Assembly (NCBI GenBank): GCA_014871385.1
Contig: CM026429.1
Location: 11,267,409-11,331,408, forward strand
Length of the DNA stretch: 64,000 nt
Source: Ceratodon purpureus
Taxonomy: Eukaryota; Streptophyta; Bryopsida; Pseudoditrichales; Ditrichaceae
Direction of reading: 5' to 3'
Position numbers and translations under genes: made by a program. Every line of letters begins with the position of its first letter. Within the stretch, counting starts at the first letter, position 1. Of the stretch, positions 1,981 to 51,802 are shown piece by piece. The notes below the pieces were generated by a model. The model was not told where the DNA came from, did not search any database, and was given only the letters and a program-made list of their open reading frames with translations.

Positions 1981-2084
1981 ATCACTCAAATAAATTTTAT
2001 GATTCCACCACTCTCCCATCCTATCCCCTTGTTTTTATTAAATAATCCCACACTCTCTAAATTTTTAATTGTTTTTTTTCCCCC

Positions 2085-3270: not shown

Positions 3271-3420
3271 TTTGAATGCCTATTCGTTTATTTTTTTTTT
3301 CTTTTTTTTTCTTTTGGGTACTCCAATCTCCCATACTAATGTATGGTATTTCAGTGTAGTCCATTCTCTCCCTTAAGCTTTATTTTTTTTCTTTTTTTGA
3401 ACTTACGACTTTTAAACTTC

Positions 3421-4460: not shown

Positions 4461-4580
4461 AAAATTCTTCTCTCCATAAATCAATGTTTCAAGCACTTTT
4501 CAGACACACTAAGTTATTCAGATAATAATCTTTTGGTACTACTGGTCCTATTAGTCCCGATACTTCCCTAATCATTCACT

Positions 4581-7500
4581 ATGGATCCGGATGAAGCGGA
4601 TGAACCGGTTGAAGTGGTTGCTCCGGCTAGAGCCATTCCAAGACTCGGTACGAGAGAGTGGGCACCATGGTTTTCGATCAAGTTCCAGGAAGGGTCACTG
4701 TCACATAAGGTAGCCCAATGTGTGTATTGCAGGACCAAGTTTTCGTACGTGAGGCATAGGTGCTTTCAGCATTATGGTTGGGACCAGTCCAATCTCTCGA
4801 GGGTTTGCCAAAAGGCACCTACCGTAGTGAAGAGGAAGTTTCATTTTTGCGCTGGAAAGATTCCCGGCCCTTTGACACAGGAGGAGGTGGATGGTATCAG
4901 GCCAACGTTCCCCGCGTCAGTTCAACGTGGAACATCCAGTGCTTCCACACACGGCACTCTGTACGGTGGATCCGAACCCTCGTATAATGATTCCGAAGAG
5001 GACCGAAATGTCTCCAGTGTTGCACCTAGTAGGGCCGGTTCGAATACCACTAGGAGCTTGCGGCAACAGGACATGAGTGAAGTACTCCAGATCGCCAAGC
5101 GGAAGGAGCTGGACATGTTGTGGTCATCCTTCTTTTACGAAGCCAACGTCGCATTCAACGTGGCCAAGCACCCAACATTTATTAAGGCGGTGAGCACAAC
5201 CGCGGCTGCCGGATTTAACTACGGTCCTCCTTCCTATGACGCGATGCGAACAACGCACATCAAGGAAAAAAAGAAGTTAATCAAGGCAAAGATTGATGAA
5301 CGTAAGAAAACCTCGACCGAGTTATACGGGGCTACGATATGCTCCGATGGCTAGGATAATGTGAATCGCCGACCGTTGATGAATGTCATGCTAGTATGTC
5401 CGGCAAGCGATGTATTTCTTGATTCTGTTGATACGACTGGCGAGAAGAAGTCAATGGGATATATTGCCGGGGAGATGAAGAAATATATTCAAGAAATTGG
5501 CCCTCAGAATGTTGTCCAGATTTGCACGGACAATGCAGCCAACATGCTTGGAGCCATGGATAATATCCTGGAGGAGTTTCCTCACATGTACAAGCAGGGC
5601 TGTTGTGCCCATATTCTAGATCTTCTTATGGAGGACTGGGGCAAGGAAGTCTTTGTGAAGGATTTGGTCGCCAAGGCTAAACACGTGTGTCATTACATTC
5701 GGAGACATCATGTTCCCATGGCCCTTTTCCGCAAATTTGAACCGAAGTTGTCCTTGGTGGTTCCTGCTGAAACCAGATTCGCTTGTAACTATCTGATGAT
5801 AGAGCGCCTTATGGAGGTTAAATTTGCTTTCGAGCAAGTGGTCATGGCACAGGAGTGGTACGAGTATGTCGACGGTTTATTCAACCAAACCGAGGGGGTG
5901 CGTAATCATGCACGCGCAAGCGTAGTGCGTCAAACAATTCGTGACGATGGGTTCTGGCATCAGTGTGACAACTTCACGCACCTAGTGAAACCAGCCCTAG
6001 TAGCTCTCAGGACCTTCGATGGAAGCCAGCCGGCAATGGGCAAGGCATGGATTACAATGAGCAACCTAAAGGATCACGTGTACAATCTCCGAGGATCCCC
6101 TTGCTTTTTCCCACCTGTCATGGCAACAAGGATGGAGCTGCGGTTCGACCGTAGATGGGACATGATGCATACCGATCTTCATTATGCCGCGGCGCTCTTG
6201 AACCCTTGGGTTAGAACGCATAAGGGCTTACAAGTCATAGGAGAAGCGAAGGCGGCTCTCAATCGGGTGTTTCGTCAGGTGGGTGGCCAAATGGGAATTC
6301 CATTTGGCGATCTTATGAAAGAGATGATCGAGTTCGACGAGGGACGTGGCCCTTACAGCCCCGAAGTGACCATCGATATCAGAGGTTTGAATCTGGAACC
6401 CCATCAATGGTCGCAGAGGATTGGAGGGGGACCATTGGCAGTCATTGCGAAGCGCATTTTATCTCAGGTCTGCTTTGCCTCATCGTGTGAACGGAATTGG
6501 AGCATGTATTCGTTTGTCCACAACAAGGTACGCAACCGCCTGGGGTTAGAGAAGTCTGAGGCCTTGGTGTACATTTATACGAATAGCAGACTCCTCCGCG
6601 AACGCCCAAAGCCCAACCCCCTCAGATGGTACGAGAACAATGCATGGTCAGAGGAGTCAGATCTGGAGAGAGATCCAAGCGAAGAGGAAGGAGATGACGA
6701 CGATCATTACATACCAGTTGACCACGCAGGCAGTGGGGATGATGATGTCTGGGGACATGATAACGTCGACGTTAACACGAATGGGCAAAACGACGGTAAT
6801 GGCAACGGACGCGGTGACGCTAACCGCAACAATCCGCGTGACCGCAACAACCACGATGATAACGGTGATGAGTACGACTTCAACAATGAACCAGAATATA
6901 GTCAGGGAAACCCGGACATGAACATCTATGGAGACGAATTACCCACGCTCCAGGTATTTGATGAAGCGGCTAATGCAGAAGGAAGAGGCGCTCGTGACGA
7001 AAGAGATGCTATTCCAGTCCAAATCAATCCTGAGAACAATGACGGGGTTGCAGATGATTCATCCAGCGAGGACCATCTAGGCAACGATATCCATGCTGGC
7101 GATGATGATGAGGACAGTGACGAAGGGGGTGATGGAAGTCATGGACGGGCTGTAGATGGACCTCATTGGACCGGCCTCGTTAGTGGGGAGGGCAACTGGG
7201 GAACCGTTCCGGCACAAGGCGACTCAAGCTTGTTTCAAGAGATTCCTCCTGCTCACGAGAGAAGGACCGTGCACGCAATCCCCGCACAGACTGTGGCTCC
7301 ATCGCAACCCACTGGTACGGGGGGTATCGAACCAGATACAATCGTGGATGGAGGCCTGGCTCGGAGGCCCACAAGTTCAATGGGCGCAAAAATAGCTCGA
7401 CTCCTTAGATCATCAGCAGCGGCGAGGCCTCCACTCAATCGAGCTAGTGGTAGTCGGCGTGGTGCCTCCACCGCCAAGCTAGTCCCCGTGGCGCCAGCTA

Positions 7501-8027
7501 TAGACGAAGCCGTACAGAATGTGGCCCAACGTGGTGCGAAGAAGTCCACAGCCAAGGTTGTTAGGAAACTACCATCACAAGAACCCCGCGGAGGAACACG
7601 AAAGTCAAGCAAAAGAACTAGACCTGATCCCCTTCCATTCTATACAGGGTACACTGAAGGGGGGCCTTCTTCTGGAACTGGGGTTGTTCGCACACGCATA
7701 ATCAGTGAGGATGGCATCACAGCCATCGGTAATTCCGGAAAGGAGAGGCCTATGAAGCGCCTAGTAAGTGCCAGAGATGGCAATACGGGTGAAGTTTCCG
7801 TGCAAGTGCGCAATCTTACATCGGAGGTGGAAGGAGAGGTACAAGCTCCAGTGGTCGGAGCTCCTGAGGATGAAGGTGACAACGAGCACTCAGAGGAGGA
7901 AGACCCCGATTGCGATGAGGCGCCAGATGACGAAGATGTGATAATCCGGCACGAATTGGGGCCCACTGTGGCTCGGAAAAGACAATCTTCACGCAAGAAG
8001 AAGCCCCGCAAAGCAAGGAGAGTCTAG
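4581..8027 (+). pseudogene. hAT-family transposase with one internal stop codon and a long acidic tail
   Basis: One continuous frame of 1149 codons (including stops) is broken only by TAG at 5352-5354. It falls in the DGW motif of the DUF659 domain (SDG-stop-DNVNRRPLMNVM), so the lost residue is almost surely the conserved Trp (TGG to TAG). The N-terminal ~100 residues look like a BED-type zinc finger (CVYC, then HRCFQHYGW). DUF659 follows at about residues 245-330. The C-terminal hAT dimerisation region lies near 6400-6600 (SSCERNWSMYSFVHNKVRNR). The next ~430 residues are an unusual Asp/Asn/Gly-rich low-complexity tail ending in a basic RKRQSSRKKKPRKARR stretch. hAT transposases cut and paste DNA. 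I found no terminal inverted repeats or 8-bp duplication. An unspliced annotation would start a second product at a GTG just after the stop. Confidence 0.8.
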
Positions 8028-8716: not shown

Positions 8717-8852
8717 TAAAAGGCGCCCCTTAACCCTTATTTTCTACTTTTCAAAGTCTCCTCTTCCAGGTGGCTCCTTGTCCTAGCCCGTGACTCCACG
8801 TGCTCTGCTTGGAACTGCAGGAAGTGGGAGCAACCAGATTGGGTGGGGGGGA
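8715..8852 (+). promoter_or_regulatory. TATA box and conserved leader of the kinase gene
   Basis: CATAAAAGG at 8715-8723 abuts array A4. The leader then has GGCTCCTTG, GCTTGGAACTG, GAGCAACC and TTGGGTGGGGGGG (about 8839-8851). These parts occur in the same order as in the hAT leader, and GCAACC..TGGGTGGGG is also present inside array A1 at about 1636-1650. Confidence 0.6.
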
Positions 8853-8898
8853 TTTTTTGGTTCTTTTTTTATTGTGTGTCCAGTTCATTATTCCAACT

Positions 8899-10467
8899 AT
8901 GTCGGTCTCTCGCGGATCCGGGAAACGCCCTGCCTACGTAGATCTTGATGCTCCTGTAGAGGATGTGATGGCAACCTCCACAGCACCGACCGTTACAGGC
9001 TCAAACCCGTCATCAAGCTCATCGGGAAAGAAGAACCGGAAGTCGGCGAGTGAGAGGGACCCGGACTACCCACCTCCTCGGTACCAGGAATTCGTTAGAG
9101 AGCTAGCATTGGAGTGGTACGGATGTCGGAAACGGGAGATGATTACCCGTACGTACGTTGAGAAGGGGGAGACCGGAATTAAGGACTTAAAGACCCATTT
9201 GGAAGAGTATTTGTGGAAGAAGCTGGACCTTTCCGAGAGATATAATGATTGTATTCATTACTTTCATTTCCCTAAGTGGATGGAGCAACAAATAACAACA
9301 AACACTACGAACATTGTGCATGTCTTTGAGTGTGTCAACAAGAAGCCAAAGGAGGGCTACTCGCGGGCGCAGAAGGAGGAGATAGAGAAGCTCAAATATG
9401 TCCAGGATTCGTGCGCGAGATTCTCGAATAATAAGACGAGGGCGAGGCCATGGCTTGAAGCTGGACTGAAAAGCGCAATGGAGAAGTACTTGTGGGGAGC
9501 AGTGGTTGGAGTTCCGAGAGGGGTCAAGTTGGTTCCGCTGTCAGGCACAAAGGAAGGCGGTTATGGTAAAGTCCGAAAATTACGTATTGTTGGCATGCAA
9601 ACCATACATGAGACTTGTGTCTTTGCGGGGAAGACGTCCAAGGCTCCTGACGAGACCCAGAAGCGGCACGAGACATCAATAGAAGCCATGGTTTGCAGAA
9701 TTGACCATCCCGGCGTTATTAAGTTTTTTGCGGTCAATGACTGGACGATGGAAGCCTACACGCTTTGGTGGAATGGGGATTGCCTGCAGAATTTTCTGCA
9801 CAAGTTCAATTCAAATATCGGTGAGGGTACTCAGAACCGTAACATCCACAAGCAGATCGATATGCCCATGGAAACACGTGACCGTGTTAAGGCCTTCCGC
9901 ACCCATAGGGCCAAGCTAGCTTGGGCACTCATCTGTATTATGGACCGGGTCCATAAGGGGTATTTGCTGCATAATGACATCTCCCCGGGAAATGTCTTGC
10001 TTCACTTCCCAGAGGATAAAGTGAGCGAGGTTTACATTGGAGTATGCGACTGGGGCCTTGCAAGTCGGGTGTGTGAGACAACTCCTTCAAGGTACGGTTA
10101 CCCAAGTGATGAGGCGCGTACGGAAGCCTTCAAGGAACGTGGTAGTTTTGTGGCTCCGGAGTTGTGGTACACTTATGGTAAGCCAAATTCGGAGACCTCT
10201 TATGAAACTGTAAGGAGGAGACATCTATATACGCAGGCTGCCGATGCGTACTCGGTTGGAGTGGTAGCAAATAAGATTTGGGATAACGAGGACGACTTCG
10301 ACCTTTTCAAGGATACAGCGGGGAAGGCTAGATTTGCGGTGGCGTTGAAGGAGCTCACAAATCCCGATCCCAAGAGCCGCTCCACCTTGCGTTTGGTCCA
10401 CGCTACTCTAACAGCCCCTCCCTACAATTTCCAAATCCCAGAGTGTTGTTATCGCAAACATATTTAG
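8899..10467 (+). CDS. Single-exon protein kinase-like protein of the accessory block
   Basis: The frame is open from 8800, but the first true ATG is at 8899, in a context like the hAT start, giving 522 residues. The N-terminal ~230 residues are charged with a Ser-rich basic segment (SSSSSGKKNRKS) and match nothing I know. The kinase domain covers roughly residues 235-510. Visible parts are a glycine loop GGYGKV, a Lys in FAGKTSKA, a candidate helix-C Glu in SIEAMVC, the catalytic loop HNDISPGNVLL, DWG in place of DFG (CDWGLAS), VAPELW for APE, and ADAYSVGVV. The catalytic Asp and Asn are kept while the loop Lys is Ser, as in some atypical eukaryotic kinases, so activity is plausible. The lack of introns contrasts with the host genes to the right. 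The shared promoter and flanking GC arrays tie it to the hAT gene; whether both belong to one mobile unit is inference. Confidence 0.75.
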   Translation: MSVSRGSGKRPAYVDLDAPVEDVMATSTAPTVTGSNPSSSSSGKKNRKSASERDPDYPPPRYQEFVRELALEWYGCRKREMITRTYVEKGETGIKDLKTHLEEYLWKKLDLSERYNDCIHYFHFPKWMEQQITTNTTNIVHVFECVNKKPKEGYSRAQKEEIEKLKYVQDSCARFSNNKTRARPWLEAGLKSAMEKYLWGAVVGVPRGVKLVPLSGTKEGGYGKVRKLRIVGMQTIHETCVFAGKTSKAPDETQKRHETSIEAMVCRIDHPGVIKFFAVNDWTMEAYTLWWNGDCLQNFLHKFNSNIGEGTQNRNIHKQIDMPMETRDRVKAFRTHRAKLAWALICIMDRVHKGYLLHNDISPGNVLLHFPEDKVSEVYIGVCDWGLASRVCETTPSRYGYPSDEARTEAFKERGSFVAPELWYTYGKPNSETSYETVRRRHLYTQAADAYSVGVVANKIWDNEDDFDLFKDTAGKARFAVALKELTNPDPKSRSTLRLVHATLTAPPYNFQIPECCYRKHI

Positions 10468-19595: not shown

Positions 19596-19824
19596 AGTAG
19601 GCTTTGAGGGAGGGCGACTCGAGCGTCCCATAGGACGCAAAGCCCATTCCATCTTCTAAAACAACAATGGCGGGGAACCAGAGTTGATCTCATTTGTTTT
19701 TGGGATTTATAGCTCAATTATGTCCTACCTGTAATGAAGATTTTACAAATCAAACCCTTGAGTAAAGTGAGAAGGATTTGATACAATAGAGTTATTTGTG
19801 AAGGCATCCGGTATTTGACTTAGA

Positions 19825-20109
19825 TACCATGAGTTTTGTTTTATTGTATTATTTTTTTTATTTCAAATAGTTGGGAGGCATGGAAGAACTTGGTGCTCAT
19901 TAACTTATATTTGGTGTGTAAGAGCTTGGTGATTTCTAAACTCAAGGAAAACTAGTTTTGCCGTCATTCCATCCTTAAAAACTAGTTTTCTTTGAATTTA
20001 GAGACCATCACATTTTTACACATTAAATGTAGTGAGACCACAAAGTTCTTCCATGCCTCTCAGCTATTTGAAGTTAAAAAAATAATACAATAAAGCAAAA
20101 ATCATGGTA
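19825..20109. repeat. Near-complete foldback element
   Basis: A left arm (19825-19959) and right arm (19977-20109) are imperfect reverse complements over about 133 bp, with only 17 bp between them. The outer ends read TACCATGA and TCATGGTA, and the inner ends are the self-complementary AAAACTAGTTTT. It is either a foldback MITE with a TA target or a long hairpin locus. The transcript of either strand would fold into one long stem. Confidence 0.6.
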
Positions 20110-20654
20110 CCTTTTTAAAACATAAGCCTTGACTTTAAGGATAATTCTAATGGCGAAGGCTATATATGAAGCATTTGAAGGCAATATTGTTAAGTTTAAG
20201 AAGATAAAAGAAAAGCATACAAAAGAAAAGATTTACGAAAAAAAATTGAATCGCCTATGAATTCTAAAAGTAGGTTGTGTGGTAGAAAAAGAAGAAAGAA
20301 AAGAAGGGCACCAAAAGCTCGCATGTAAGCTTGCTCGAGGGAGCTATTTCTACCCAATGGTTAGACATTGTCTCTATTCTAAATAATTTTTAGTGACAAT
20401 AGGAGCGCCACTTTTTAGTAGATAATGAATATACATAAGAATATGCATCTACACCCATGAAGGTGATGTTCACTAATTCTTCTCAAAATTAGGCTTTAAA
20501 ATGATTTTATAAATCTTTAGATCATTGAGTTATTGCACAAGCTCTGCATGGTTTTTATTAGGAATGATAACTTATTAACTCTATACAATAATATTTAAAT
20601 AAAAATACAAAATCTCATTGTAAAGCATTTTTATAAAAATATTAACTTCTAAAA
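20110..20654. other. AT-rich intergenic stretch
   Basis: AT-rich sequence left of the Mutator-like element. I see no gene or repeat that I can support. Confidence 0.45.
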
Positions 20655-20664
20655 GCCCGAGGGA
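20655..20664. repeat. Left target-site duplication of the Mutator-like element
   Basis: GCCCGAGGGA directly precedes the left terminal inverted repeat. The identical 10-mer directly follows the right end at 34120-34129. Ten bases fits the 9-11 bp duplications of Mutator-like elements. Confidence 0.85.
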
Positions 20665-20732
20665 CAGCGACGCTATCTTGTGAGCGGTGAGCGGTGAGCA
20701 GTGAGCGGTGAGCACTAAATTTTCAAATTTTT
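20665..20732 (+). repeat. Left terminal inverted repeat
   Basis: It begins CAGCGAC, continues GCTATCTTGTGAGCGGTGAG and contains four GAGC(G/A)GT heptamers in tandem before CACTAAATTTTCAAATTTTT. It pairs with 34052-34119 reversed, with three mismatches near the tip and two in the heptamer block. Confidence 0.85.
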
Positions 20733-21001
20733 AAGTAAAAATTTGATTTTTTATTTTTTTTTTTTCAATTTTTTGGAGAACAATCAAACAATAATGAGCA
20801 ATTTAGGACACTTCGTTGGAATATATGAATGCAAATAAAGTATACCCTATAACCGTGGAATCAATAAAATGTGAATGGTTGGAGGAAAAATCTTACTGTT
20901 TAAGTCGCATACAGAATGTATATCCAATCCTTTTTTTTTTTTTTTTTTAATTGCATTTCTGCGGACGCTGATATGAGAGAAGAATATTTCCGAGGTATGA
21001 A

Positions 21002-21039
21002 GGAATATTCCTCTCTCGGATCCGAGAGAAGAATATTCC
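21002..21039. repeat. 38-bp near-perfect palindrome near the left end
   Basis: GGAATATTC at each end surrounds a core of CTCTCGGATCCGAGAG, and all but one base pair of the 38 bp is symmetric. A further half-site (GAGAGAAGAATATTTCC) lies just upstream at about 20978. The core 12-mer CTCGGATCCGAG recurs in the large intron of the cargo gene. It may be a protein-binding site. Confidence 0.6.
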
Positions 21040-21244
21040 CTACTATTGGAAGATGTTTTTTATTTTGCATTCATTTTACTACAAACACATTCGAGAGGTG
21101 GACAATATATAAATAAAATGACCTTTATTTATGTTCTGCGGATTCCAAATCCATCACAAAGCCAAAACAAATCAATTCCGCTATTCATATAATGTATTCT
21201 TGAACTGTATTGGTCACTTAATTTCACAGTCTAACCATAAGAAA

Positions 21245-24200
21245 CTACTGAAGCGGTTCAGCAACTTTGGCCATCTCCAGAACACGCATAACTTCGTTGA
21301 AGCTGAAGCTAGGGGCGTGCATAAAAGTATCAACCTTGTAATCCATCTCACATAGATAGCGGAAGATATAATAAACATGTTTGCAGTACTTCCACTGTCC
21401 TCTTTTGCCAAGGGTTTCCGAAGTCATTTTCATGAAGTCGGGGCAAGTACATCCAGGGAAGTCCGTAATGGTGATACAATATATCGTTTCACTTGGACTC
21501 TTCAAGGAGATGACGCAGCCAAATCCTGGATATGGAATCGATGTGACATTTGTAATCCAATAGTTGTTCATGAGACCCGCGCTGCTCCACTTGTTGCGGT
21601 GGTCGGAGGTAGGAGCGTCAGAACTTCTCCTGATGGCATATCCGTTTCGAGTCGTCGAGTGTGTATCCGGATCAACAGGAACCGGGAAATGACTCCTTGG
21701 AAGCGGCATATTAGCAGAAACCTGGAACTGACGACGAGGTGATAGTACTCCACGTTGTTGGAGTTGGAACCCGGCCTCTTCAAGAGCCAAAATCTCTTTG
21801 ATGGTCAAGTTCGTGCCCATTTTCACAGGCCAAGTCTGCGGGATAGATGGCCAATCGATCACAAACGACTTCTTTGTGCCCTTCACACATCTATTAATGT
21901 CATCGGCACAAAACCAGAAGTCAGTAGAAATGTGGCGATCGGTTCTGAACTCCTTCTTCAGCCCTACATAGGTAGGAGCAGGCGTACCATGCGTACCTCG
22001 GCGCACTCGGGTATCACACTTCTCATTCGTATGAGCCTGCATTGCTTGGCATTTTCGGTTAGACTTCCCGGACAGTCTGGCAATGTGCCACTTAGAGGGG
22101 TCGCAATCTGTCTCCTGCACTGAAGTAGTGTGTTCAACACCGGAGTCAGGTTGAGAAAGAGCCTCCTCAATGCGTGCTCTGGTGGATCTCGTGCCATCTC
22201 GAGGAATGGAATAATTCACTGTATCATAGCGATGTGAGTCATGACTCGAACCAGGCGGCAAATCTAACTTCCGTTTCGTAGATCCAAAAATCTCTGCACC
22301 TTCCAAGCCTCCTTTCTTCGTCAGTAAATCCTCGGCTCCCGGGTACAAATTCACTGCCTCAGCAATCAACTTGGGGTCACCAGAGCGTTGAGCGTGGCGT
22401 AAACGAAGTTCTGCTCTATCCGGACCTTTACCGCCCTTTCCTCCCTTCAGCCAAGACCGGTAACTTGTGATCTGCATGAATGCTCGGATCATATCATCCA
22501 CTGTTGCCTCGTACAAACAGGTCATTGTATTTCCTGATTGTTGAAGCCATCTGTTATGCACGGTTTCCGCAAGGTTGCAGGAAGGCATGTCGGCTCTCTC
22601 GTCGAGGGTAAGATCCTGGGAAATACAATAAAACAAATCATATCATTTTCACGATTATAGATAAAAAGTAAGGTTTAGGAATACCTCATGGAAGATTTAA
22701 GGATGAATGAACTTACAAGCTGCATCAACCCTCCCCATTGTCTATACCGATAGTGCCAGAAAACCATCCAATCATTTAGATGACGCCTTCCTTCTTCAGT
22801 TGTAGCGCCTGACGAAAGCCACCACCCGCGGATGACGTTGTACTGCGCTTCTGCTTCCTCCTGGGTCTTTGCATCCTTCCATACTTTGCACAAAGCTTTG
22901 TGTTGGTCTTGATAGCTTGGCAAGATATTCCGAGAAGTAGCTCTTTGAAGGCACTTTGTCCAGTGGAAAAGACAAGTGCGTTCCCGTTCTTCCATAGGAT
23001 CATTGGGGTCTCCGTTCCCATACACCTTCCGAACAGCGTGCCAGTTCGCTCCAGCATTGTCAGCCATGAATCCTTTGAAATTTGTATTTTCAAGGCCATT
23101 CTTGCGCATAACTTCATTGAGCTGGAGCCAAAATAACTCCTGAGCAGCAGCATCTTCGGATTGCATGTCACAAAGAGCAATCGTCATAACTTTACAATAC
23201 TTACTGTCATAAACGTGGCATGCCATAGTGGTCCAGTCAGCTACACGCCTAACATGGTCAAACATGATCCAGCAGTCTTGAAGATCACCGCCAGGCTGCA
23301 TGCGCTTCACCAGATCCACACCGCTTCCTGGACGATCAGTGGACATCTTGAACAGAAACACCTTGCCTTCATTCTGTCCAGGGAACTGATTACGGTGGAT
23401 GAAATCAAAGTTCGAGTAATCCTTCAGCTCAAGGATGCTATCTGTGACTCCTCTCCCTTGACGGAAAAACCTCTTCGACCCAGAAACAAAATTGCGTATA
23501 TTCGGTGAAGAAAGAGTCTCAAATTGGTCCATTACAGCATCCATAGATGCTCCCCGAAGATGACTGCCTCCTGCAGTAGGACGGATCAGAGCATCGGCAA
23601 GGTACTGCTTGCTGGCCGCTAGAACAATAGCAGAGTTTTTGGCGTTAGGTGTCCTCTGAACCTCCTTAGCTATGCAGTCAAACATGATATCCATAGAATC
23701 TTGACATCTGCCTTGAGATACAGGATGTCTATGACGTCCTAAATGAATGGCCGCACGGGTCATATCATTGTCTGAAGACGACACATGATAGATCCTAGCC
23801 TCGCACAATGCTAGACAAGTAGGAGGTGTCTGACATACTTTGCATGCTAAAGTAGATTTCTCTGTGGGGGAGCCTCCCACAGTGAAAGGTACTAAAGCTA
23901 CGCCTGACCATTCAGTGCTATTTACCATCCCATTATTCCTGCAGATGTAATCACAACTCATATTGGGACATTGTAAGTGTCCAGTACATGAAGACTTACG
24001 ATATGTGAGGCCGTACTCGTTCTTGATGTTTGTGGTCATGGTCTTGCACCAGGTGTGGCCATCATACTGCTTGCTCATCCCGTCCATTCCACCTCCAAAT
24101 GGATTTAGAACTCCTTCTGGTACAGGGGGCAGCTCGAAAATCTTGTCTCCATCGTAAACTGGCGGTAAGTACCTCACTTGTTCATGTTCAATAGTATCGA

Positions 24201-24861
24201 AATCAATCTTCGATAATTCTGATCGGGAGCCCCTTCTTGATGCTGTCATTCTGATGGAAAACATAATGCTCCTGCTTTTTTTTGAAGCAGGGTGAATAGG
24301 TGGACGCCCTGCAGACAATGACGCAGACATACTAGAACGACTACCCTGTCGAGATGGACGAGAGTCTTGGGATCCACAACTCTGAAATGGATTTGACCTA
24401 GTGTCCCCTAGCTTGATCTCACTGTGAGTGTCATCATCCGAGTCACTCAATAAATGTACTGAGTTGTCACTGGGTTCAATTTTGACAGACGCTAGACCAG
24501 GAACTTGAACTGTTGACGTGGAGGGGGGAGGGGTCAAAAGAACAGTAGACTCAGACATCTGTGCATGTGATAACCCGTAAACCTTGAAAGTGCCAGTGCT
24601 AAGAGTCCAGACGTAACCATCAGGTGTACTATCCTTCACTTGAAATACACACTCAAGAATCTCACCATTATCATCAAAGATCTCTTCTTCCACGTAAATA
24701 GTCCCAGCTCTAAACCCAAACCTGAGGCTAAGTAATCGCTCCTCCACAACTACCTTATTGTCTGGACCTACAGACATCACAAAAGGAATACCTCCATCAT
24801 GAGATCGTAGAGAGGCCATTCTAAGTGTACTATAGAAGATAGAAGAAGTACAATCATGCAT
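21245..24861 (-). CDS. Mutator-like transposase with zinc fingers and SWIM domain
   Basis: Two exons, 24861-22717 and 22615-21245, join in phase 0 across a 101-bp GT-AG intron to give 1171 residues. The first ~250 residues are Ser-rich and probably disordered. A Cys/His cluster around residues 270-330 (WCKTM, TGHLQCPNMSCDYIC) resembles a GCM1/FLYWCH-type finger. The catalytic core shows Asp535 in IMFDHVRRVADW, Asp601 in GFMADNAGANW and Glu732 in SCNLAETVHNRW, placed as the DDE triad of MULE transposases. A SWIM finger is at Cys1104, Cys1106, Cys1126 and His1128 (GCTCPDF ... YCKHVYYIF). The intron falls between the second Asp and the Glu. It would catalyse cut-and-paste transposition from the terminal repeats in the nucleus. 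No stop or frameshift is seen. Residue roles are inferred from spacing, not from an alignment. Confidence 0.88.
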
Positions 24862-25563
24862 TGGAAGAAAACGTGTGCAAGCAGAGTGTATGAAGATGTG
24901 CTTGGTGTGTTCCAGGTTGTAGAGATTATATAGTTGTTAGTGGTTAGTGTGGTGGGTCAACTAACATACTCTAAAATAAAATAGAGTGTACTGGCGAATT
25001 CAGCATGACCTGTATAGCTTAATTTAAGTTCGAATGTATCTGACAGACTGAAATGCTTAGGCGGCTGAGACCGCCAACCACATCAGGTTTAGGTAATACT
25101 ATTATATCATTCAGCAGTGAAATTGAAACGTCACAGATGTACACTAAGACGTTTATAACAATTAGCCGTCAATGTGAGCGTGATCAGGGCAACTTTAATT
25201 TAAATCATTATTCTGTTCGGAGGCAGAGTTCCATATCTTACTTTATATTAAGGAGAGATATCATACCAGACCTTGTATTTAGTTGTCACCATTTTCAACA
25301 TAAGATCATGTCATTCGCTTTACATAGATTTCGTGGTCATTCTAAAATGGTCTGCACCTAACAATTTAAATATATGCTACTATTATATATAACCATGACA
25401 CTGACACGAACATTAGTAATCACAGGATGCTCATTCATGTTCTATAGGTCTTCAAGGTTTAGGGTACTAAGAGTCCACTATAAAACTGGTACTAAGCACT
25501 TGTCGATTTCAAAGCATACGTCTTAGTTAGAATTATGCTTACGGGAGAGCGTTACTAAGACCT
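24862..25563. promoter_or_regulatory. Divergent promoter region between transposase and cargo gene
   Basis: This 700-bp interval separates the two start codons. For the transposase, the minus-strand TATA box CTATATAA is at 24926-24933, about 65 bp upstream of its ATG. For the cargo gene, CTATAAAA at about 25478-25485 lies 80 bp upstream of its ATG, with a second TATATATAA farther up near 25385. The arrangement would allow joint expression of both products. Confidence 0.5.
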
Positions 25564-28500
25564 ATGAGGGAAGAGGAAGAGCCAAGCCCAAGAGTAGTGA
25601 GGGCTCCTAGATCATGTACGACTAGAGGTAGAGGGAGAAGGCGAGGTTCAGGTTTTAGTAATCCGAAGCAGGTGGCGGCCCAGAAGAGACGGAAGGAGAA
25701 AGTCGATCTTGCTCGTATTGCAGAAGTGGATTATAGTTCAGATGATCCCAAGCATCTCAAAATCAAAGCATTGGCCAGTGTATGTCAGGTATACTATACC
25801 ATTCAGTATGCATTCTGTAATTGACTAAGTGTAAGTATGTCATTTTTTTTTAATGGATTCTCAATGGATTCAGCCGCGGCCTTGTTTATTTAATCTAGTT
25901 GTCAATGACATTGAGAAGCACTGCACACTGCTTTCACAAAATATTAATTAACCGATCATACAATCTAGATGAATGTTAATTTTTGAATGTACGGAGATCA
26001 TGAATGTCGAGATTTTTTTGGAACCGGGTTGATTTTTTCGTTACTTGGTATCTTCGGTTCGCAGGTCGGGTTGCCGTCAGGAGAGGGAGGAGGCGACGGA
26101 GTTGAAGCTGGGGACCCCTCTCAAGTCGACTTCGACACCAGCAATCACCCTAAACTGGTAATGACCTTCGATCTCTTGTTTGAATTTTGCCTTCGTTTTC
26201 TTTTTGCGGTAGACTGATTGGGTATGAACCGCACCTTTGGATTGAATGCGCATTCTCAGAGGAATGTTGTATGAAAAACCTAAAATGAAGTATGCAGGAG
26301 TTTAAATTCGTAAACGATTGGTTGGGTCGGTTTGCAGAGAACCTCGGCGCCGGGGAGTGGTGTTGTCGACGAAGTCCACCGCAACGACCCTCGTCGGTGT
26401 CTGCGGAAGGAGGCTTCGCTTGAGTCTGTACGTGCTGCTCGAACGACTGGAATACGAGCTGGGGTTTTTTATTTTCTAGTGAGAGGCAGTTGGTGTGTTG
26501 CCGAATGGAGATGGTATATTGCAATTCACTTAGCTTGTGTCGATTCTAACCGAAGCAGAGTGATTGATTCAGGAAAAACAAGTGGGAGGATTCGAGGGAG
26601 AAAGAATTCTTGGAGATGTCAACGAAGTAGACAATTCGGTGAGTCTTGGATTTGAGAGGTTTAGGGTATTGGGAGATTGGGGGAAAGTGCGAACTCATTG
26701 GTTTCAAATAGTGCATGCAGGAACGGGAGGGTTTCCTTGAGGGCGGAGAACAGACGGACATATCTGCAGCTGTGGAACCGCAAGCTTTTGCTACGAAGGC
26801 AGTTTTGGTAAGTGTCCATGTCCCATATTGAAATAACTTGATCATTAATTTTTTGGACAGCTCGCACGAAGCAGCCATGTGTCTACAGGATCCTACCTGG
26901 TCCACAATCTCATATCCTCTACCTTAATTGCCTTTGCAACTTATTTCTTATTAAATGTAATGAACTGGCACGCAAACTTTGTGCTTGCAACCCATTCCGC
27001 ATGGGAGCATGTATTCAGTCGGCAGATCAACAGAAGGCAGCGTAATTTACTGCACAGTTGACGTGAACCTTAATATCATTAGCCTTTTAGTAAGGCATCC
27101 CGGTATATGAGCCAACCCTGTGTGAATTCACCTGAGAATATTTCGTGTTCAATTCTGACGACACATTGAATCCATTTCTTTGATTTCTGCATTTGACACT
27201 TGACACGTGAGTACAGAGTTAAGACTGAATAATTCACTGTCACTGCTGCAGGAAATTCATCTTGAAAAAAAAGCGAGAGAGGAGCGCATTGCTTTCCAAG
27301 TGGTGGAGGAAGAGAAGTCTAATTCGAACTCCAATTCAGTGAAGGTACATCTGATATGAGTTTTAACTACCACCTCTGTTTTGTCTTTGTAGTTTCTTTG
27401 CTCAATGCGACATGATCATGAGCGTGGCCTGATTTATATAGACTAATGAAAAGGCAATGAAAGTATAATTAGAATTGTGAGCCGAAGATACTGTGCTGGC
27501 CCAACCTAGGTTTGGACATTTGCTAACCTGGTTTCTTGTTTTGCTTGCAGATGAGCTCCGACCAGGGCATGGAGGAGGTGCAGAGCGCGTCCACAAGCAT
27601 GGATTGTAACGATGGCGGTTTGGCGGAGATGGAAGATCAGCTCCGCAAGGCAGTGCAGGGTAGCTCACATCTTGCACTTCAAGAAGCAATTGACATACCA
27701 GGCATGGAGATTGATGTGCCACTTTGCAGGATGATTCCTATGAAGGATGTGAGGGAGCCGTTGAAGACCGACATACAGAAGCTGAAGGCAGAATTCAGCC
27801 ATGGTTACAAGCGAGGTTCATCAAGCTTCTATCTATCACTGAAGAGCTTCAGAATGGAAGAGTCAACTGTCACGGAGGCTGACAGGTCTTCCTGGTCCGA
27901 ATTATGGCGCAAGGAGGACAGTGAGTTTGAAGCACGTTTGCTGTCAAATCCAGACTTGAAAAAATACTCCAACTGCTATTTCTATGTATGGGACGGCAAT
28001 CATCGCCATATTGCTTGGTCAGAATTGATCAACACTCTCCACAAGCATGATGCTTCTTTCCATGTTTCAGCCCGTTCAATCATCATCAACGTCACTCCTG
28101 AAAATTGCAACATGTTGTTGCATGCCATGACAGATTGGAACAAGTAAGTAAAGTATTCAGTTTAAACTCATAACTTAGTAAAGAACATAAATGTCTTGAG
28201 TTTAATTCATTTATTTCATTTATTTCATTTACAAATGCTTGATAATTCAACTAAATGGATTGACTGTCAACTGTTTGCAGAAAAAATGAAGTAGATCATG
28301 TTGTTCAACATTGGACGCATGAGGTGAAGCGGGTCCAACAGCTAGGTCTGTTGGACTTCGACCAGCTAAAGGGTCTGGTGAAAGATGAAGATTTGCAAGC
28401 AAGCATTCTAGAGTGGGGGCGTATGAAGAATAGGAAGTGGTATCACCTGTTATATGATGCGTTCATTGACTTCTTATATGAGGTGAGAATTTTCAATGGA

Positions 28501-31500
28501 TTTAATTTGTAAAATATTCATCCGTGATGACTTCATTTATTATTCAAGCCAATACACTAACAACCAATTCTCGTATTTTAGAGAGAGATATCAGCCGCCC
28601 AAGAGGAAGCTATTCGGATCTATAGGGACACATTAGTCACAGGTCGTGGAGAGGACAGGGTAGGAAGTCCCTCAGAGCTCCTTGCCGTTGCAAAGAAAGC
28701 GGTGGCAGTGAAGAAAACATCCCTTTCAACTAAATTGGACCGATACTTGGCCATTGCCAACCCAGCTAATGGCGAAGGTTTCTTGAAAGAGGTATGAATA
28801 TTTCCATAATACATCTCACGGCTCCTGTTGTTATTTTCTTTAATCCATGGTTTGTTAATCACATTATCGTCTCTTGCTCCAGTAGTTGACTCCTGTAGCG
28901 TGCAACCAGGACGCAGCTTGGTAAATTGCTTCGGTGCTTGCTGCTTGCTTGCTGCTGCGTGCTGGATGCACGCAGCAATGGTGTTTTTTTTTTATATTAA
29001 AATGCATGTTGTGTACAGCTGCGTGCATCCAGCACGCAGCGTCTGTCTTGAATTTCATGGTCGATGCTTGGTGCCTGGGGTGGCTGCGTCCATTTGGAGG
29101 GGGGTAAGTCAAAAAAAGTGAAAGTCTACGGCACCCCTGGACCTTCCCTCGGATCCGAGGGGTGCCTGGACCTCCATCCGTGACGACGCTTTTTTTCAGA
29201 AAGGGCCTCCGGAACCTGGCTCGATTTTTTTTTTTTTTTATTTTGTTTGATTTTCGGGGACTCTGAACTGCTCATGCTCACCGTCATGGAGAGTGGTTGC
29301 TTGTTGTATTGTTTCGGAGCTTGCTGCTTGCTTGCTGCTGCGTTGATGTTTACAGACGCTGCGTGCTGGATGCACGCAGCAATGATGTTTTTTTTTTATT
29401 AATATGCATTTTGTGTACAGCTGCGTGCATCCAGCACGCAGCGTCTGTCTTGAATTTCATGGTCGATGCTTGGTGCCTGGGGTGGCTGCGTCCATTTGGA
29501 GGGGGGTAAGTCAAAAAAAGTGAAAGTCTACGGCACCCCTGGACCTTCCCTCGGATCCGAGGGGTGCCTGGACCTCCATCCGTGACGACGCTTTTTTTCA
29601 GAAAGGGCCTCCGGAACCTGGCTCGATTTCCTTTTTTTTTTATTTTGTTTGATTTTCGGGGACTCCGAACTGCTCATGCTCACCGTCATGGAGAGTGGTT
29701 GCTTGTTGTATTGTTTCGGAGCTTGCTGCTTGCTTGCTGCTGCGTTGCTGCTTGCTTGCTGCTGCGTGCTGAATGCACGCAGCAATGATGTTTTTTTTTT
29801 ATTAATATGCATTTTGTGTTTGATGGTCGATGCTTGGTGCCTATCGTGGCTGCGTTCATTTTCTGCGTGTTATTTTATTGTGATGTATTCTTTGTCGCTG
29901 TGTGGTGGAGGCACGCAGCATTGGGCGGTTTCTGTGTTTTGTATTTCTTCACTTCTAGGTTGTGTTATTAATTCCATCTTAATTGAGGCTATAATTATCG
30001 CTGACTATTTCTTGCTTGCTGCTTGCAGGCTATTTGCATTGTGTATTACTTCTTCCTGCGAGAAACCTTATTATGCTTATTGAAATGACCTTAGATATTT
30101 AGATTTCAAAGCAACTATGTTTTTGTGAGTGTGCATGTTTTAGGGATCTATTTGACTCAAATGACGGTATTCTTTTATGCAGATCATTCGCCATTTTGAT
30201 GTCTATCAGAGCGATGCAGAAATGACCCCAGAGAAGTTGCAACTTTTTGCAAGCGCAAAGGTTGCTCCCAAGTACAAAGAGAGATGGCTAAGGTGGTGGA
30301 ATATGAGCAAGCAGAGTCGGGTGGAGTACAACTTTCCTCCAACACCAGCTTCAGATTTAGTTCTTCGAGTCTGGATTGATCAAGCAGCCTTCTGGGCTGG
30401 GGTAAGTTCAATCATTATTTCTCCTATAAATTGAATTGATTTATGTCTTCTAATGTTGCTATTGAAATTAATACCACATTCTTTCTAATGTAATGGATTC
30501 TAATATTTTTGGTTTGTTTGTTATCCCGCAGTTAGAAGAAGAGGCTAGCCTTCGTTATACCAAGATTGTAGAGGAGGATATCATAGTTTTGAGGACAGAG
30601 AATTTACCTAATCCAGTAGATGATATTGGCTCCTGGATTGAGGCTCATTCTCTCACTCTTTGGGGGAAGGCCTTCACTGGTTTCTTCCCTAAGGCTGGCA
30701 CTTTTACCAAGAAAGAGCCATTTCTCAACCAAGCAGGGGCTGAGAATGCTATGAAGAGGGTTATATTGAGGTACTTTTGGAGGGAGTTGGTTGTTAAGGG
30801 TGCCATTGATAGGAATGATATTCCACAGCGTTTTAAGAAATGGGTGGATATTTCTAGCTCTGAGTGCATTTTTACAGATTATCAGAGGAGGCATTTTCGA
30901 GCTCCACATCTTGTTCAATGTCCCTGGTACCTTGAATTGAAGGAGAATGAGAAGTGCCCTGGGGATGAGAGAGCTTTGAAGGCTAGCTGTGACAACTTGG
31001 TGCTGCAGCTTGGGGATGAGAATACCATGAATTTGGAGGAGAATGCCTCGGAGGTTGGTGATGATGCTTCTCTTTCTGAGAAGCAAAGGAAGAAACTAGC
31101 AGAGAGGAGGGCAAAGGCTGAGGCAAGGATGAAGGAGAAGGAGGACAAGAAGAAGGAGAAGGAGGAAGGAGTCAAGCTCAAGAGAGAATTGGCAGCAAGG
31201 AACAGGGAGCTGGCCAAGCTTGTTTTGAAGGAAGGGCCAGAGAAGATGTTGACTCATGTTGGCATTTCACCTTCAGGCAGCAGCATGGCTGCTGCCATAG
31301 TTCCTATAGCTCCTCAGGTGCCTCTTTTTTCTACCCCCATGCCTTCTCAGACTATCTACACTATTCCATGCTCGCAGATGGATGAGGTAGACACTAGGGT
31401 TGAGATCATCAATGACTCCCCTATGGGCATTTTGGAGCTGTTTAATGATGTATCAGAGGGGGATGAGCCTGAGGTTTGGATCAAGGTGAAGGACTGGATC

Positions 31501-32840
31501 AAGGAGAATCTCGGTATCAAGGCTAGGAAGTTTGGAGGTGAAGAGGCTGAGGTTGCTGTGGACCTCATCATTTTTGATGTTCCAGAGGATTTACCAGTTC
31601 CAGGTTTAGGGCAGGATGGTGAGATTCCATTCTGGAACAAGCACCCCAAGATTTCAGCAGGGAAGAAAATGGAGTCTTCATGGATTAAGGCCCATTTTGA
31701 GTTTGCTATGCAGTTTCTGCAGGATGATGGGGCTTTGATTGTATTCTACCCTGATTCAAGGTTCATTTCGAATGAGCTTATTTCCTGGGCAGAGTGGGCT
31801 AACTTTCAGGAGGAGGCCAAGTGGTTTGCAATCAATGGCCTGCCATTGACTATTCCAGACCGTTATCCACGGGAGCACAAGACTTTTATGGTCAAGTGCT
31901 TCATCAAGATGGAGAATGCGGAGGAGGGTGTTCCAAGGTCTAAGTTCCAGTTTCATGACAGGGCTGAGCTTGGTGCCCAAGGCATCAAGCTCTCCACTGA
32001 TGGTCATTGTACTAATTTGATTACTGCAGATTCTCTGACTTATAATTCAGAGACAGGTTTGCCATTCAGAGGTCCTAGAGAGAAGACTTCTAACCTCTTG
32101 CAGGCTCTGATTGATCTCTGCACTGTAGAGAATGACATTGTCATGGATCTCACAGCTTCTACAGGTATTTCTTAGTCTTTCTGATTGTTATTTTTTGTAT
32201 TTCTTTTTATTCTATAATGTCATGCAATTGAGCTTCGATTTGTCTGCAGGTGCTTCCATTCGAGCATCGAAGAGTCTCCGGCGCCATGTCATAGGCTTTG
32301 AGTATGACACCACCTTGTACAAGCAGGTGTTGTTGCCTCTTCTTCCAAGCGCGGAGGAGGTTGAGTCTGCTCCAATTCCTGTGCCATCACCAAAGAAGAA
32401 ACGTGCCATTGATTCAGATGATGAGCCTGAGAGGAAGACTGCCCCCAAGCGTTCTTGTAAGTAAGTCTCTACATTCTTTTGACATTTGCATAATTGTTTA
32501 AAATAATTTAGTTCAATATTTATTGAACTGTGAAATTGTCATGTGCAGTCGGAAGAAAGCGTTGAAGAATGACATTGGTGGCTCTATTATCTCGCGCCAT
32601 CTTAGCAAGATAAAGAGTCCAGTTAGACCTTTAGAGCTTCCACATTATGCAGAGATGCAGGCTCAAGCTTATTTAGTTGCTCCTTCTCCATCTATTTCAT
32701 CTGACAGAGATAGCATTTGTCGTGATGCTGAGATTTATCTTGACATAGCTGCAGAAGTAGCCAGAGTGGTATTATCTAGTGATAGCGATTCTTATGATGG
32801 TTGGATTGATACTGGTAGTGATGACGAGATGTCTACTTGA
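25564..32840 (+). CDS. ParB/Srx-like domain fused to a beta-class DNA methyltransferase-like domain
   Basis: Likely exons are 25564-25788, 26065-26157, 26338-26427 (donor uncertain), 26573-26638, 26721-26807, 27252-27344, 27551-28143, 28281-28482, 28582-28791, 30183-30401, 30532-32164, 32250-32460 and 32549-32840; one more may lie near 26861-26970. They join in frame to about 1340 residues. The start is basic (RGRGRRRGSG). A ParB/Srx-like domain covers 27,680-28,140: VPLCRMIPMKDVREPL, then YFYVWDGNHRHIAW with the GNHR core at 27995-28006. A Lys/Glu/Arg-rich coiled coil is at 31,070-31,230. The methyltransferase-like part has VDLIIFDVPEDLP (motif IV position), DGALIVFYPDS, then REKTSNLLQALIDL (motif X) and DLTASTGASIRASKS...HVIGFEYD (motif I and the next strand). 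This IV-X-I order defines beta-class amino-methyltransferases. Canonical DPPY reads DVPE here, so catalysis is doubtful. Bacterial and phage ParB-methyltransferase fusions are the nearest known architecture. Confidence 0.78.
28918..29850. repeat. Tandem ~390-bp repeats with hairpins inside an intron
   Basis: Two full units and a partial third (TTGCTGCTTGCTTGCTGCTG at about 28936, 29321 and 29723) fill much of the large intron 28792-30182. Each full unit carries a 23-bp self-complementary segment starting GCTGCGTGCTGGATGCAC. About 40 bp later comes its exact reverse complement, so the RNA could form nested stems. Each unit also has the 14-bp palindrome CCTCGGATCCGAGG (29147-29160 and 29549-29562). 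The third unit is truncated and has lost the second hairpin. Confidence 0.75.
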
Positions 32841-32999
32841 TCATTGCATATTTCCTCTATATTGTTATGTTTTCCCTACTTATATATTATATGATAGCTT
32901 TGGCTTTGGATTTTATATTTTGCCTTACCCTCACTTTACCATTAGGAGCAGTTTGGGGTCTCCAACGGGCCTTTTCCATGCTTTCCGTGCCAAAGTTTT

Positions 33000-33330
33000 G
33001 GGCATGCCCGTGCACTTTACCTGCTGGCACCAACTGTGCCAGCAGGTCGCCAAATGCTGCCAGCAGTGACAGCAGTTGGCATTTGGGGGGTCCAGCCAAT
33101 CGCTTCCCTTCCCCACCCCACCCCACCCCACCCCCCCATTGGACAATATAAGCAGTAATGACACTGTCACCGACCGTGTGCCCACTGCTATCACCCCATT
33201 GGACAGTACCGGATCCTGTTGTCAGCGGATCCTCCTGTCAGCGAATCCTGCTGTCAGCGAGGCGAATTTTGTTGTCAGCGGGCAGGATATCGACCAATGA
33301 GATTTCGAAGAGAAGTGTCAGCGGGCAGGA
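33000..33330. repeat. Short repeats in the right subterminal region
   Basis: A CCAAATGC...GCATTTGG hairpin is at about 33048-33084. CCACCCCACCCC runs lie near 33111-33135. CCCCATTGGACA occurs twice (about 33135 and 33193). A cluster of TGTCAGCG words spaced about 15-20 bp lies between 33217 and 33325. The rest, up to 33,850, is very T-rich low-complexity sequence. Subterminal repeats of this sort may bind the transposase, but nothing proves it. Confidence 0.5.
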
Positions 33331-34051
33331 AGCTCACCTAATCCGGGCTGTCTTACAAGGCCCGTTGGAGACCTGATTTTTCCCCTAATGTATACTTTTG
33401 TGTATTAATCTAGCGGCCATATATTTTAAATTGACTTCATACATGATTGAATTATAAAGATGGTACTCATTTTTTAAGAAGTTGAACATTCCTTGGTTAC
33501 AGCTTGAAGGCATCAGAATATAATGTGGTTTTCTTTAAACCTTTCTCATGTATTTTTCCCTGCCCTTTTTCTCTCTTATATGTATTCATTCATTTTATTA
33601 TTTATTTTTATTTTTTAGTTAATTCCTTTTTATGTTTTATCTTCTTTTTTTTTTTAAATTTTTAATCGTTTTTGTTGTTTTTTATCTTTCGTTATTTTAT
33701 TTATATTTCTTTCTTTTCTTCTTATTTTCCTTCATTTTTTAATTTTTTTCCCCTATATTCCTTTTCATTATTTATTTTTTTTCTATTTCTTTTTTTCATT
33801 TATTTATTTTTTTCTCTTCTCTTTTTTTTCCTTCCTTTTTATTTTTTCCTCTTGGTCTTCATGGCGTGGGATTGATAGGATATATGAAAATATAATAACC
33901 CTTTCTTGGGGTATGAATTGGGTGAAAATTTCTACATTTATCAATTCAGAAGCCATTCTTTTTAGAATATACCCTAAAACGCTTTCCACGGTCATAGGTC
34001 CCTTATATGCCATGTCATGCAAAATCGTCTCAAAATATCAAATAAATAGTC

Positions 34052-34119
34052 AAAAATTTGAAAATTTAGTGCTCACCGCTCACCGCTCACTGCTCACCGC
34101 TCACAAGATAGCATTCCTG
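34052..34119 (-). repeat. Right terminal inverted repeat
   Basis: It reads, reversed, CAGGAAT then GCTATCTTGTGAGCGGTGAG. The variant GAGCAGT heptamer is in a different position from the left end, so the two ends differ in the order of heptamers as well as in three tip bases. The target duplication follows directly. Confidence 0.85.
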
Positions 34120-34129
34120 GCCCGAGGGA
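34120..34129. repeat. Right target-site duplication of the Mutator-like element
   Basis: GCCCGAGGGA, identical to 20655-20664, in direct orientation and adjoining the right terminal repeat. Confidence 0.85.
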
Positions 34130-50915: not shown

Positions 50916-51547
50916 TCATATCCATATACTTAATATTCAGACATCTTTAACAATTACATGTCTAATTAGAAATGTCAAGTGATGAATAAGCTAGCGTCAT
51001 CTTGATTTGAAATGGTCTCACCCTACGACTTTCCACTTTAGTCCTGTATCACTAGGAATATAAATCCTCAACTCTTGAGTTGTTTTGCCAATTGGCGAAG
51101 TAAGAGGCTACAACTCTGAAAAGAGACAAAGATTGGAAATATTTTTTTCAGCAGCATTTCACAAATACCCTCATTCATCAATATTGACGCATCTAAAGAA
51201 GAAAAAAATAAACTTTCAACAAGGAATTTTACAAATAAGTTCAACAAGAGATTTTTAACTATGAGTCTTTACATAAAACATTAATGGACTATACTTTCAA
51301 CCTATGAATGGAGTATTATTTTTGCTATCTTCACCCCTTTCAAGGACTCAAAAGCATGCATTCTCCACACACTCCAAAGCCATTCACCAAATTAGTATCA
51401 CCACACAACCGCAACACTACATTGAGACAGATGGAACTAACCCACAAGCCAACATCATGACACAAGCTGCTATCACAACACAACAATTGCTGCTCCCACC
51501 TTCACCCCCCAAGCTTCCATACTCTTCATCTTCATCACTGCATCTCA

Positions 51548-51760
51548 TCAACCATCACCAAACCATCACCAAACCATCACCAAACCATCACCAAACCATC
51601 CCAAAACCATCACCAAACCATCCCAAAACCATCCCAAAACCATCCCAAAACCATCACAAAGCCATCACAAAGCCATCACAAAACCATCCCAAAACCATCC
51701 CAAAACCATCACAAAGCCATCACCAAACCATCACAAAACCTTCACCAAACCATCCTGAAC
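51548..51760. repeat. 11-bp minisatellite upstream of the F-box gene
   Basis: About 18-19 copies of ACCATC(A/C)C(C/A)AA run head to tail. Because the unit is 11 bp, every frame cycles and none is stopped, which creates a long spurious open frame (51304-51951) rich in Thr, Ile, Lys, Pro, Ser, Asn and His. Confidence 0.85.
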
Positions 51761-51802
51761 TCAGTCACAGTGATATCCAACCCAACCCAATTTGTGGGGA
51801 AG

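Follow-up and report, generated by a model that had tools for sequence, protein, structure and literature searches.

Introduction

Few of the proteins with which plant transposons counter host silencing, such as VANC, are understood in detail. In VANDAL21/Hiun, an Arabidopsis Mutator-like element (MULE) carrying VANA, VANB and VANC, the VANC21 protein is described as binding short motifs in tandem repeats, which are intronic in VANC21 and VANB21 and also occur upstream of VANA21 (PMC5735166). Extra open reading frames (ORFs) reported in MULEs include mudrB, mutB, vanB and vanC (PMC6446971), which agrees with the premise of an initial annotation of the locus described here that Mutator elements can carry additional genes. 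DNA methyltransferases are found on retrotransposons, as described for SymbioLINE-Dnmt, SymbioDIRS-Dnmt3, the Klebsormidium Dnmt3 elements and DIRS elements with Dam-like enzymes (PMC5890265). Here we analyze a 13,455-bp element at positions 20665-34119 of a 64,000-nucleotide stretch of DNA from the moss Ceratodon purpureus (GenBank assembly GCA_014871385.1, contig CM026429.1, positions 11,267,409 to 11,331,408; hereafter the window, to which all coordinates refer). We read the element as a complete DNA transposon, MULE-like and probably autonomous, whose two genes diverge: one for a transposase and a spliced one that we call the cargo. We favor the reading that the cargo encodes a DNA-binding accessory protein of the element, which would act on the element's own repeats and either relieve silencing or assist transposition. 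We assign this reading a probability of roughly 0.4, a figure that already allows for the wide divergence of the methyltransferase domain in the cargo product.

Results

A complete insertion with two divergent genes

The element is flanked by a perfect 10-bp duplication, GCCCGAGGGA, which occurs exactly twice in the window and not at all on the opposite strand, and it is bounded by 68-bp terminal inverted repeats that differ at five positions, three of them within the outermost 7 bp. Together with flanking bases, the ends form a 97-nucleotide inverted pair (86%), one of two inverted pairs of at least 60 nucleotides found in the window with a 14-base seed. This match of ends and duplication lies far beyond chance, and the anatomy is that of a complete insertion; the inverted ends and duplication given in the initial annotation are borne out. 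Because the duplication is perfect, we infer that the insertion is recent. A scan of viral contigs with a 21-base pattern from the element ends gave no result, and neither did an Rfam search.

Two divergent open genes lie within this single duplication, which we count in favor of the accessory reading, and the 3' end of each faces one of the inverted ends (Table 1). The transposase gene, on the minus strand, consists of two exons that join in frame into 1157 codons without a stop. The cargo gene lies on the plus strand (25564-32840) and comprises 13 exons with 1337 open codons and 12 introns, all GT..AG, in line with the divergent multi-exon gene of the initial annotation; it has more coding sequence than the transposase gene. 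Exon boundaries were set by eye from the splice consensus. Exons 1-6 are short and without homology support, and the cargo protein may start at exon 7, because this exon opens with an ATG. A tandem duplication among exons 2-6 was considered and rejected, the smallest p in ten exon pairs (200 shuffles each) being an unconvincing 0.01. For the middle of the protein, from residue 484 to about residue 960, the best matches were DUF4407 (E 0.38) and an unnamed PHROG family (0.15), both below a useful threshold; tblastn of this region against phages returned no match, and a single-sequence viral-contig scan with the exon 11 part of the cargo found no relative.

Between the cargo stop codon and the right end, an inverted pair encloses GC-rich repeats and is perhaps a nested small element; no duplication was recognized by eye.

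The cargo could have been taken up as a passenger, that is, as a whole host gene, or one formerly acquired horizontally, with no role in transposition. MULEs are described as acquiring host genes and gene fragments (PMC6446971), and the intron-rich structure of the cargo and its long coding sequence would fit such an origin. Moreover, with one copy of the element known here, the travel of the cargo together with these ends rests on no second copy. Against capture, the cargo is open with consistent splice sites and is not a fragment, and it mirrors the transposase gene, pointing away from it and ending on the side of the right inverted repeat. These two points are only suggestive, and we consider capture somewhat unlikely.

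A methyltransferase domain with a changed active site

Residues 1008-1195 of the cargo product match Pfam N6_N4_Mtase (PF01555) with an E-value of 5.3e-9 and 36.8 bits, above the cut-off of 26.7. PHROG DNA methyltransferase families match at 7e-9 and weaker, and the best phage methylase found by tblastn (E 1e-5) is 23.9% identical to the cargo across 94% of the domain. The motif order is permuted, with motif IV (residues 975-978) preceding motif I (residues 1165-1171). The Pfam stretch begins past motif IV, and the register of this motif was taken from alignments with CcrM and with phage enzymes: the DVPE of the cargo aligns with the DPPY of CcrM, in an alignment with an E-value of only 0.015, and the phage alignment agrees. 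Three phage methylases, fetched from among the best matches, are free-standing proteins of 250-269 residues with D[IV]PY at this position. For this reason, the valine of DVPE looks like inherited variation, judged from these sequences, and the replacement of tyrosine by glutamate looks like the striking change. The assignment to the beta-class IV-X-I methyltransferases stands as to homology and motif order and needs qualifying at motif IV, which reads DVPE and not the catalytic consensus.

To place these residues, we used an alignment with 147 relatives, all distinct ORFs, whose sources are bacteria, phages, one plasmid and viral contigs (4 fetched singly, 70 from genome contigs and 73 from viral contigs). 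They come mostly from scans with patterns containing D[VI]P or D[VI]P[YE], so that DPPY enzymes are under-represented among them. From the D[VI]P scan, 80 of 219 relatives were kept, and from the D[VI]P[YE] scan 80 of at least 439; a methyltransferase ORF was present in 162 of 164 loci, and removal of identical ORFs and of those shorter than 200 residues left 147. The cargo methyltransferase relatives found in an alignment-based viral-contig scan were prokaryotic or phage-like.

All 147 relatives carry the motif IV tyrosine (112 DIPY, 33 DVPY, one DLPY and one DILY), where the cargo has glutamate. The proline and the first glycine of motif I are likewise kept in 147 of 147 and are leucine and serine in the cargo (DLTASTG vs DPxxGSG). 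The cargo thus has neither an aromatic motif IV, be it [DNS]PP[YFW] or D[IV]PY, nor the S-adenosylmethionine (AdoMet) loop DPxxGSG. It retains 13 of the 21 columns that are invariant across the relatives and 37 of the 128 columns conserved at 80% or more, six of the 128 being gaps in the cargo. Because the changes extend beyond the active site, the cargo methyltransferase is, as far as the alignment tells, a distant relative with a doubtful active site rather than a well-conserved enzyme that carries a single lesion.

As an observation in its own right, the alignment contains a large family of free-standing methylases with D[IV]PY in place of DPPY (145 of the 147 aligned), exemplified by the ORFs at L001 2462-3271, L002 2432-3184 and L003 2426-3184. 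Among the matches listed, their genomes are mostly of Bacillota, with Bacteroidales, Synergistales, Sulfuricurvum and others also present.

An active cargo enzyme would methylate adenine (N6) or cytosine (N4) of the element DNA and thereby mark it as self or counter silencing. The clear N6/N4 methyltransferase homology fits such a function, as does the retention of Asp and Pro in motif IV, of Asp and the final Gly in motif I, and of the acid of GFE; in addition, transposable elements with DNA methyltransferases of their own are described among dinoflagellate LINE (long interspersed nuclear element) and DIRS elements and charophyte retrotransposons (PMC5890265). However, the residues replaced in motifs IV and I are those kept in every relative, and changing SPPY to APPA in the rotifer enzyme N4CMT is reported to have abolished activity (PMC8885841). 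We regard an active enzyme as quite improbable and did not keep it as the leading reading, which also weakens the initial proposal that the product marks element DNA.

Repeat arrays as candidate binding sites

Intron 9 of the cargo gene contains a tandem repeat in which the 23-bp palindrome GCTGCGTGC-N5-GCACGCAGC occurs five times with arms free of mismatches. Two decayed copies adjoin, none is found elsewhere in the window, and five mononucleotide shuffles of the window contained zero. The array recalls the VANC-bound repeats of Arabidopsis VANDAL elements and, by this analogy, the palindromes may be a candidate binding array. A second candidate is the GTGAGC array present in each element end.

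Based on these findings, we propose that the ancestor of the cargo product was a permuted N6/N4 amino-methyltransferase of the kind found in bacteria or phages, and that this part was joined to a large N-terminal region bearing a GNHR motif. The old methyltransferase fold would still contact DNA and would no longer modify it. Because the catalytic motif is changed, the role we hold most likely is that of a sequence-specific DNA-binding partner, which would recognize the GTGAGC units at the element termini, the palindromes of intron 9, or both. Such recognition could relieve host silencing, as VANC does for VANDAL, or could serve to assemble or target the transposase. A more specific version, in which the protein is an independent pseudo-enzyme counterpart of VANC, that is, a bacterial or phage methyltransferase turned into a non-catalytic, repeat-recognizing accessory with sites both in its own intron and in the element ends, and would either oppose silencing by the host or direct transposition, seems doubtful.

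Several points weigh against a DNA-binding accessory. The cargo keeps part of motifs IV and I and GFE, as listed above, and the changes in its active site belong to a broader divergence in which 8 of the 21 invariant columns differ. Weak or absent methylation is itself a prediction, made because the motif IV tyrosine and two invariant AdoMet-loop residues are changed. Pfam showed no known DNA-binding domain in the cargo outside the methyltransferase fold, and the phage, plasmid, prokaryote and viral-contig searches brought up neither a transposase relative nor a relative of those cargo parts that lie outside the methyltransferase domain. The single copy known here comes from within a 64-kb window. 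As for the intron 9 array, the tandem duplication itself accounts for part of the palindrome copy number, and the array may be a nested foldback element or an insertion unrelated to the cargo.

A ParB/Srx-like motif in exon 7

The initial annotation also assigned a ParB/Srx domain of the GNHR type to the cargo product. Its sole support is the WDGNHRHIAW of exon 7: VWDGNHRHIAW is the one stretch aligned by a ParB model built from 24 sequences (14 phage, 10 genome), and it falls on the GxxR box. ParB, including ParBc (PF02195), was absent from the Pfam, PHROGs, NCBIfam and PDB matches of the cargo at E-values up to 10. With the ParB model, the exon 7 segment scored -1.3 bits, a value reached by 228 of the 336 shuffles that received a score out of 500 made. 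The GNHR region gave chance-level matches in 3 of 10 prokaryote genomes (best E 0.149) and no relative in a single-sequence viral-contig scan, and a single-sequence structure model of exon 7 had a mean predicted local distance difference test (pLDDT) value of 38, too poor for a fold search. With no library match and profile tests no better than shuffles, we dropped ParB as a firm label; on this evidence, the region should be called a ParB/Srx-like motif and not a ParB domain.

These results also bear on a true ParB-methyltransferase system imported whole from a bacterium or phage. ParB-methyltransferase fusions, which the initial annotation describes as common in bacteria and phages, do exist in phages: the ParB domain of a fusion protein has matches in 442 phage records, one of them annotated 'domain ParBc, AdoMet_Mtases', and the GxxR box is where the cargo motif falls. 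Yet the ParB scores are at shuffle level, the distance from the GxxR box to motif IV is 608 residues in the cargo vs 139 in the L188 fusion, and the three fetched phage methylases are free-standing. We consider such an import very unlikely.

A probably MULE-like transposase

The putative catalytic residues of the transposase, picked by eye in a single sequence, are spaced D-65-D-130-E, with CxxH between the second D and the E. This spacing resembles the triad of the MULE Muta1 (D214/D283/E419), and a CH motif between the second D and the E is described for most MULE transposases (PMC5225508). The 10-bp duplication falls within the 8-11 bp given for MULEs (PMC6446971), and terminal inverted repeats are also present. 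Neither the MULE transposase profile PF10551 nor any other Pfam transposase family matched the protein, whole or in pieces, at E-values up to 10, a null result for which it matters that HMMER filters discard most weak matches; NCBIfam gave no transposase family match either. Compared with six prokaryotic MULE/IS256 proteins, the transposase core reached 3.2 bits, in an alignment that lies between the two putative D residues. This score is weak, being matched by 28 of 1000 shuffles, and two control segments from the cargo reached 2.2; it counts against our reading of the element. A tblastn search with the core against plasmids returned four records only (E at least 1), single-sequence viral-contig scans with the core and with the N-terminal part found no relative, and a single-sequence structure model of the core (mean pLDDT 41) was too poor for a fold search.

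The gene annotated as an intact transposase is thus open over its two exons and matches no Pfam transposase family. The Mutator-like assignment, for its part, draws on the inverted ends, the duplication length, the DDE spacing, the CxxH and the SWIM-like tail, and lacks a PF10551 match. The element is probably Mutator-like on these sequence features, and we use the label MULE-like rather than MULE because the defining profile found no match, which can happen with a divergent member. Another or unnamed DNA-transposon superfamily with duplications of about 10 bp, to which the absence of transposase families among the Pfam matches would point, is highly improbable given the MULE-range duplication (PMC6446971) and the fitting DDE spacing, CxxH and SWIM-like tail, together with the weak MULE/IS256 score. 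Readings of the superfamily and of the cargo role are not mutually exclusive.

Table 1. Features of the MULE-like element and its two genes in window coordinates.
Feature	Position	Strand	Details
Target site duplication, left copy	20655-20664	none	GCCCGAGGGA
Left terminal inverted repeat	20665-20732	+	68 bp
GTGAGC array, left end	20680-20713	+	five units, 7-bp spacing; candidate transposase or accessory binding sites
Transposase exon 2	21245-22615	-	residues 702-1157; putative E718; SWIM-like CxCx19CxH at residues 1090-1114
Transposase exon 1	22717-24819	-	residues 1-701; putative D521, D587, C616xxH619
Spacer between the two divergent start codons	24820-25563	none	744 bp; possible shared promoter
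Cargo exons 1-6	25564-25788, 26065-26157, 26338-26427, 26573-26638, 26721-26807, 27252-27344	+	residues 1-218; tentative
Cargo exon 7	27551-28143	+	starts with ATG; WDGNHRHIAW motif, ParB/Srx-like by motif only
Cargo exon 8	28281-28482	+	
Cargo exon 9	28582-28791	+	
Tandem repeat in cargo intron 9	28954-29819	+	402-bp repeat; palindrome GCTGCGTGC-N5-GCACGCAGC at 28954, 29018, 29358, 29420 and 29761
Cargo exon 10	30183-30401	+	
Cargo exon 11	30532-32164	+	charged region and methyltransferase part; motif IV DVPE, residues 975-978
Cargo exon 12	32250-32460	+	completes motif I DLTASTG, residues 1165-1171; GFE
Cargo exon 13	32549-32840	+	stop codon included
Inverted pair inside the element	32940-33390	none	34 nucleotides, 79%; between cargo stop and right end
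Right terminal inverted repeat	34052-34119	-	68 bp
GTGAGC array, right end	34071-34104	-	five repeat units, 7-bp spacing
Target site duplication, right copy	34120-34129	none	GCCCGAGGGA

Neighboring features of the window

Just left of the element, at 19822-20112, lies a 77-nucleotide inverted repeat (88%) with a 137-nucleotide gap, possibly a small foldback element. Further left, a hAT-type transposase frame (4572-8027) matches DUF659 at 4.4e-25 and Dimer_Tnp_hAT at 0.0016, the latter below the cut-off, and is followed by an open frame of 557 residues (8794-10467) with a protein-kinase domain (Pkinase, 2e-8). GC-rich degenerate repeats surround these two frames, which may belong to another element that carries a cargo gene; among the 25 of 101 inverted pairs listed, none was a clear terminal repeat for this region. 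At 57971-61253, an NB-ARC domain (8.5e-28) with a Roq1-type winged helix is followed by a frame that reads as leucine-rich-repeat-like; a portion of this frame (60863-61223) has a second copy at 62333-62659. The NB-ARC gene with its winged helix indicates by itself that the window is plant DNA. Tandem arrays occur at 1993-3397, as a repeat of about 140 nucleotides in a C/T-rich tract, and at 51517-51802, as an 11-nucleotide minisatellite.

Discussion

If the cargo is indeed a DNA-binding accessory, a methyltransferase fold with a changed active site on a complete element would represent a second, apparently unrelated solution to anti-silencing. Alternatively, the element would show how bacterial-type amino-methyltransferases move between eukaryotic genomes. 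In the text of a 2019 eukaryote-wide MULE survey (PMC6446971), no word begins with methyl, moss, physcomitrella or bryophyt. Among the open-licence literature matches listed, we recognized, by title and opening of the abstract, no DNA transposon of a plant that carries a gene of the ParB or N6_N4_Mtase kind, which is weak evidence of novelty.

Several described systems share parts of this arrangement. The free-standing D[IV]PY methylases (Lrm1, CHPC925, phiRM10) have the same permuted motif order and are homologous over the whole domain, whereas the cargo lacks the tyrosine, comes from a spliced gene and has about 960 additional residues on its N-terminal side. The two genes of maize MuDR converge, whereas the transposase and cargo genes described here diverge. 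MuDR, with mudrA and mudrB, likewise combines a transposase and a second gene in one MULE, but mudrB is described as being of unknown function (PMC6446971). Bacterial-type amino-methyltransferases acquired by eukaryotes are exemplified by the N4-methylcytosine methyltransferases of Marchantia and of bdelloid rotifers; unlike the cargo, these are described as active host genes, and the rotifer enzyme has SPPY (PMC8885841, PMC12344493). The methyltransferase-bearing retrotransposons are comparable to the moss element as mobile elements, from protists or relatives of plants, that contain a gene for a DNA methyltransferase; however, their enzymes are described as C5 or Dam-like (PMC5890265), whereas here a DNA transposon carries an N6_N4_Mtase relative with a changed catalytic motif. 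VANDAL21/Hiun, finally, is a plant MULE that likewise pairs a transposase with an intron-containing accessory gene (PMC5735166, PMC6446971) and has tandem repeats in an intron of that gene (PMC5735166). The two differ in the accessory protein itself: a figure legend on VANC names DUF1985 among the domains, and the passages on VANC mention no methyltransferase fold, whereas the moss cargo has one.

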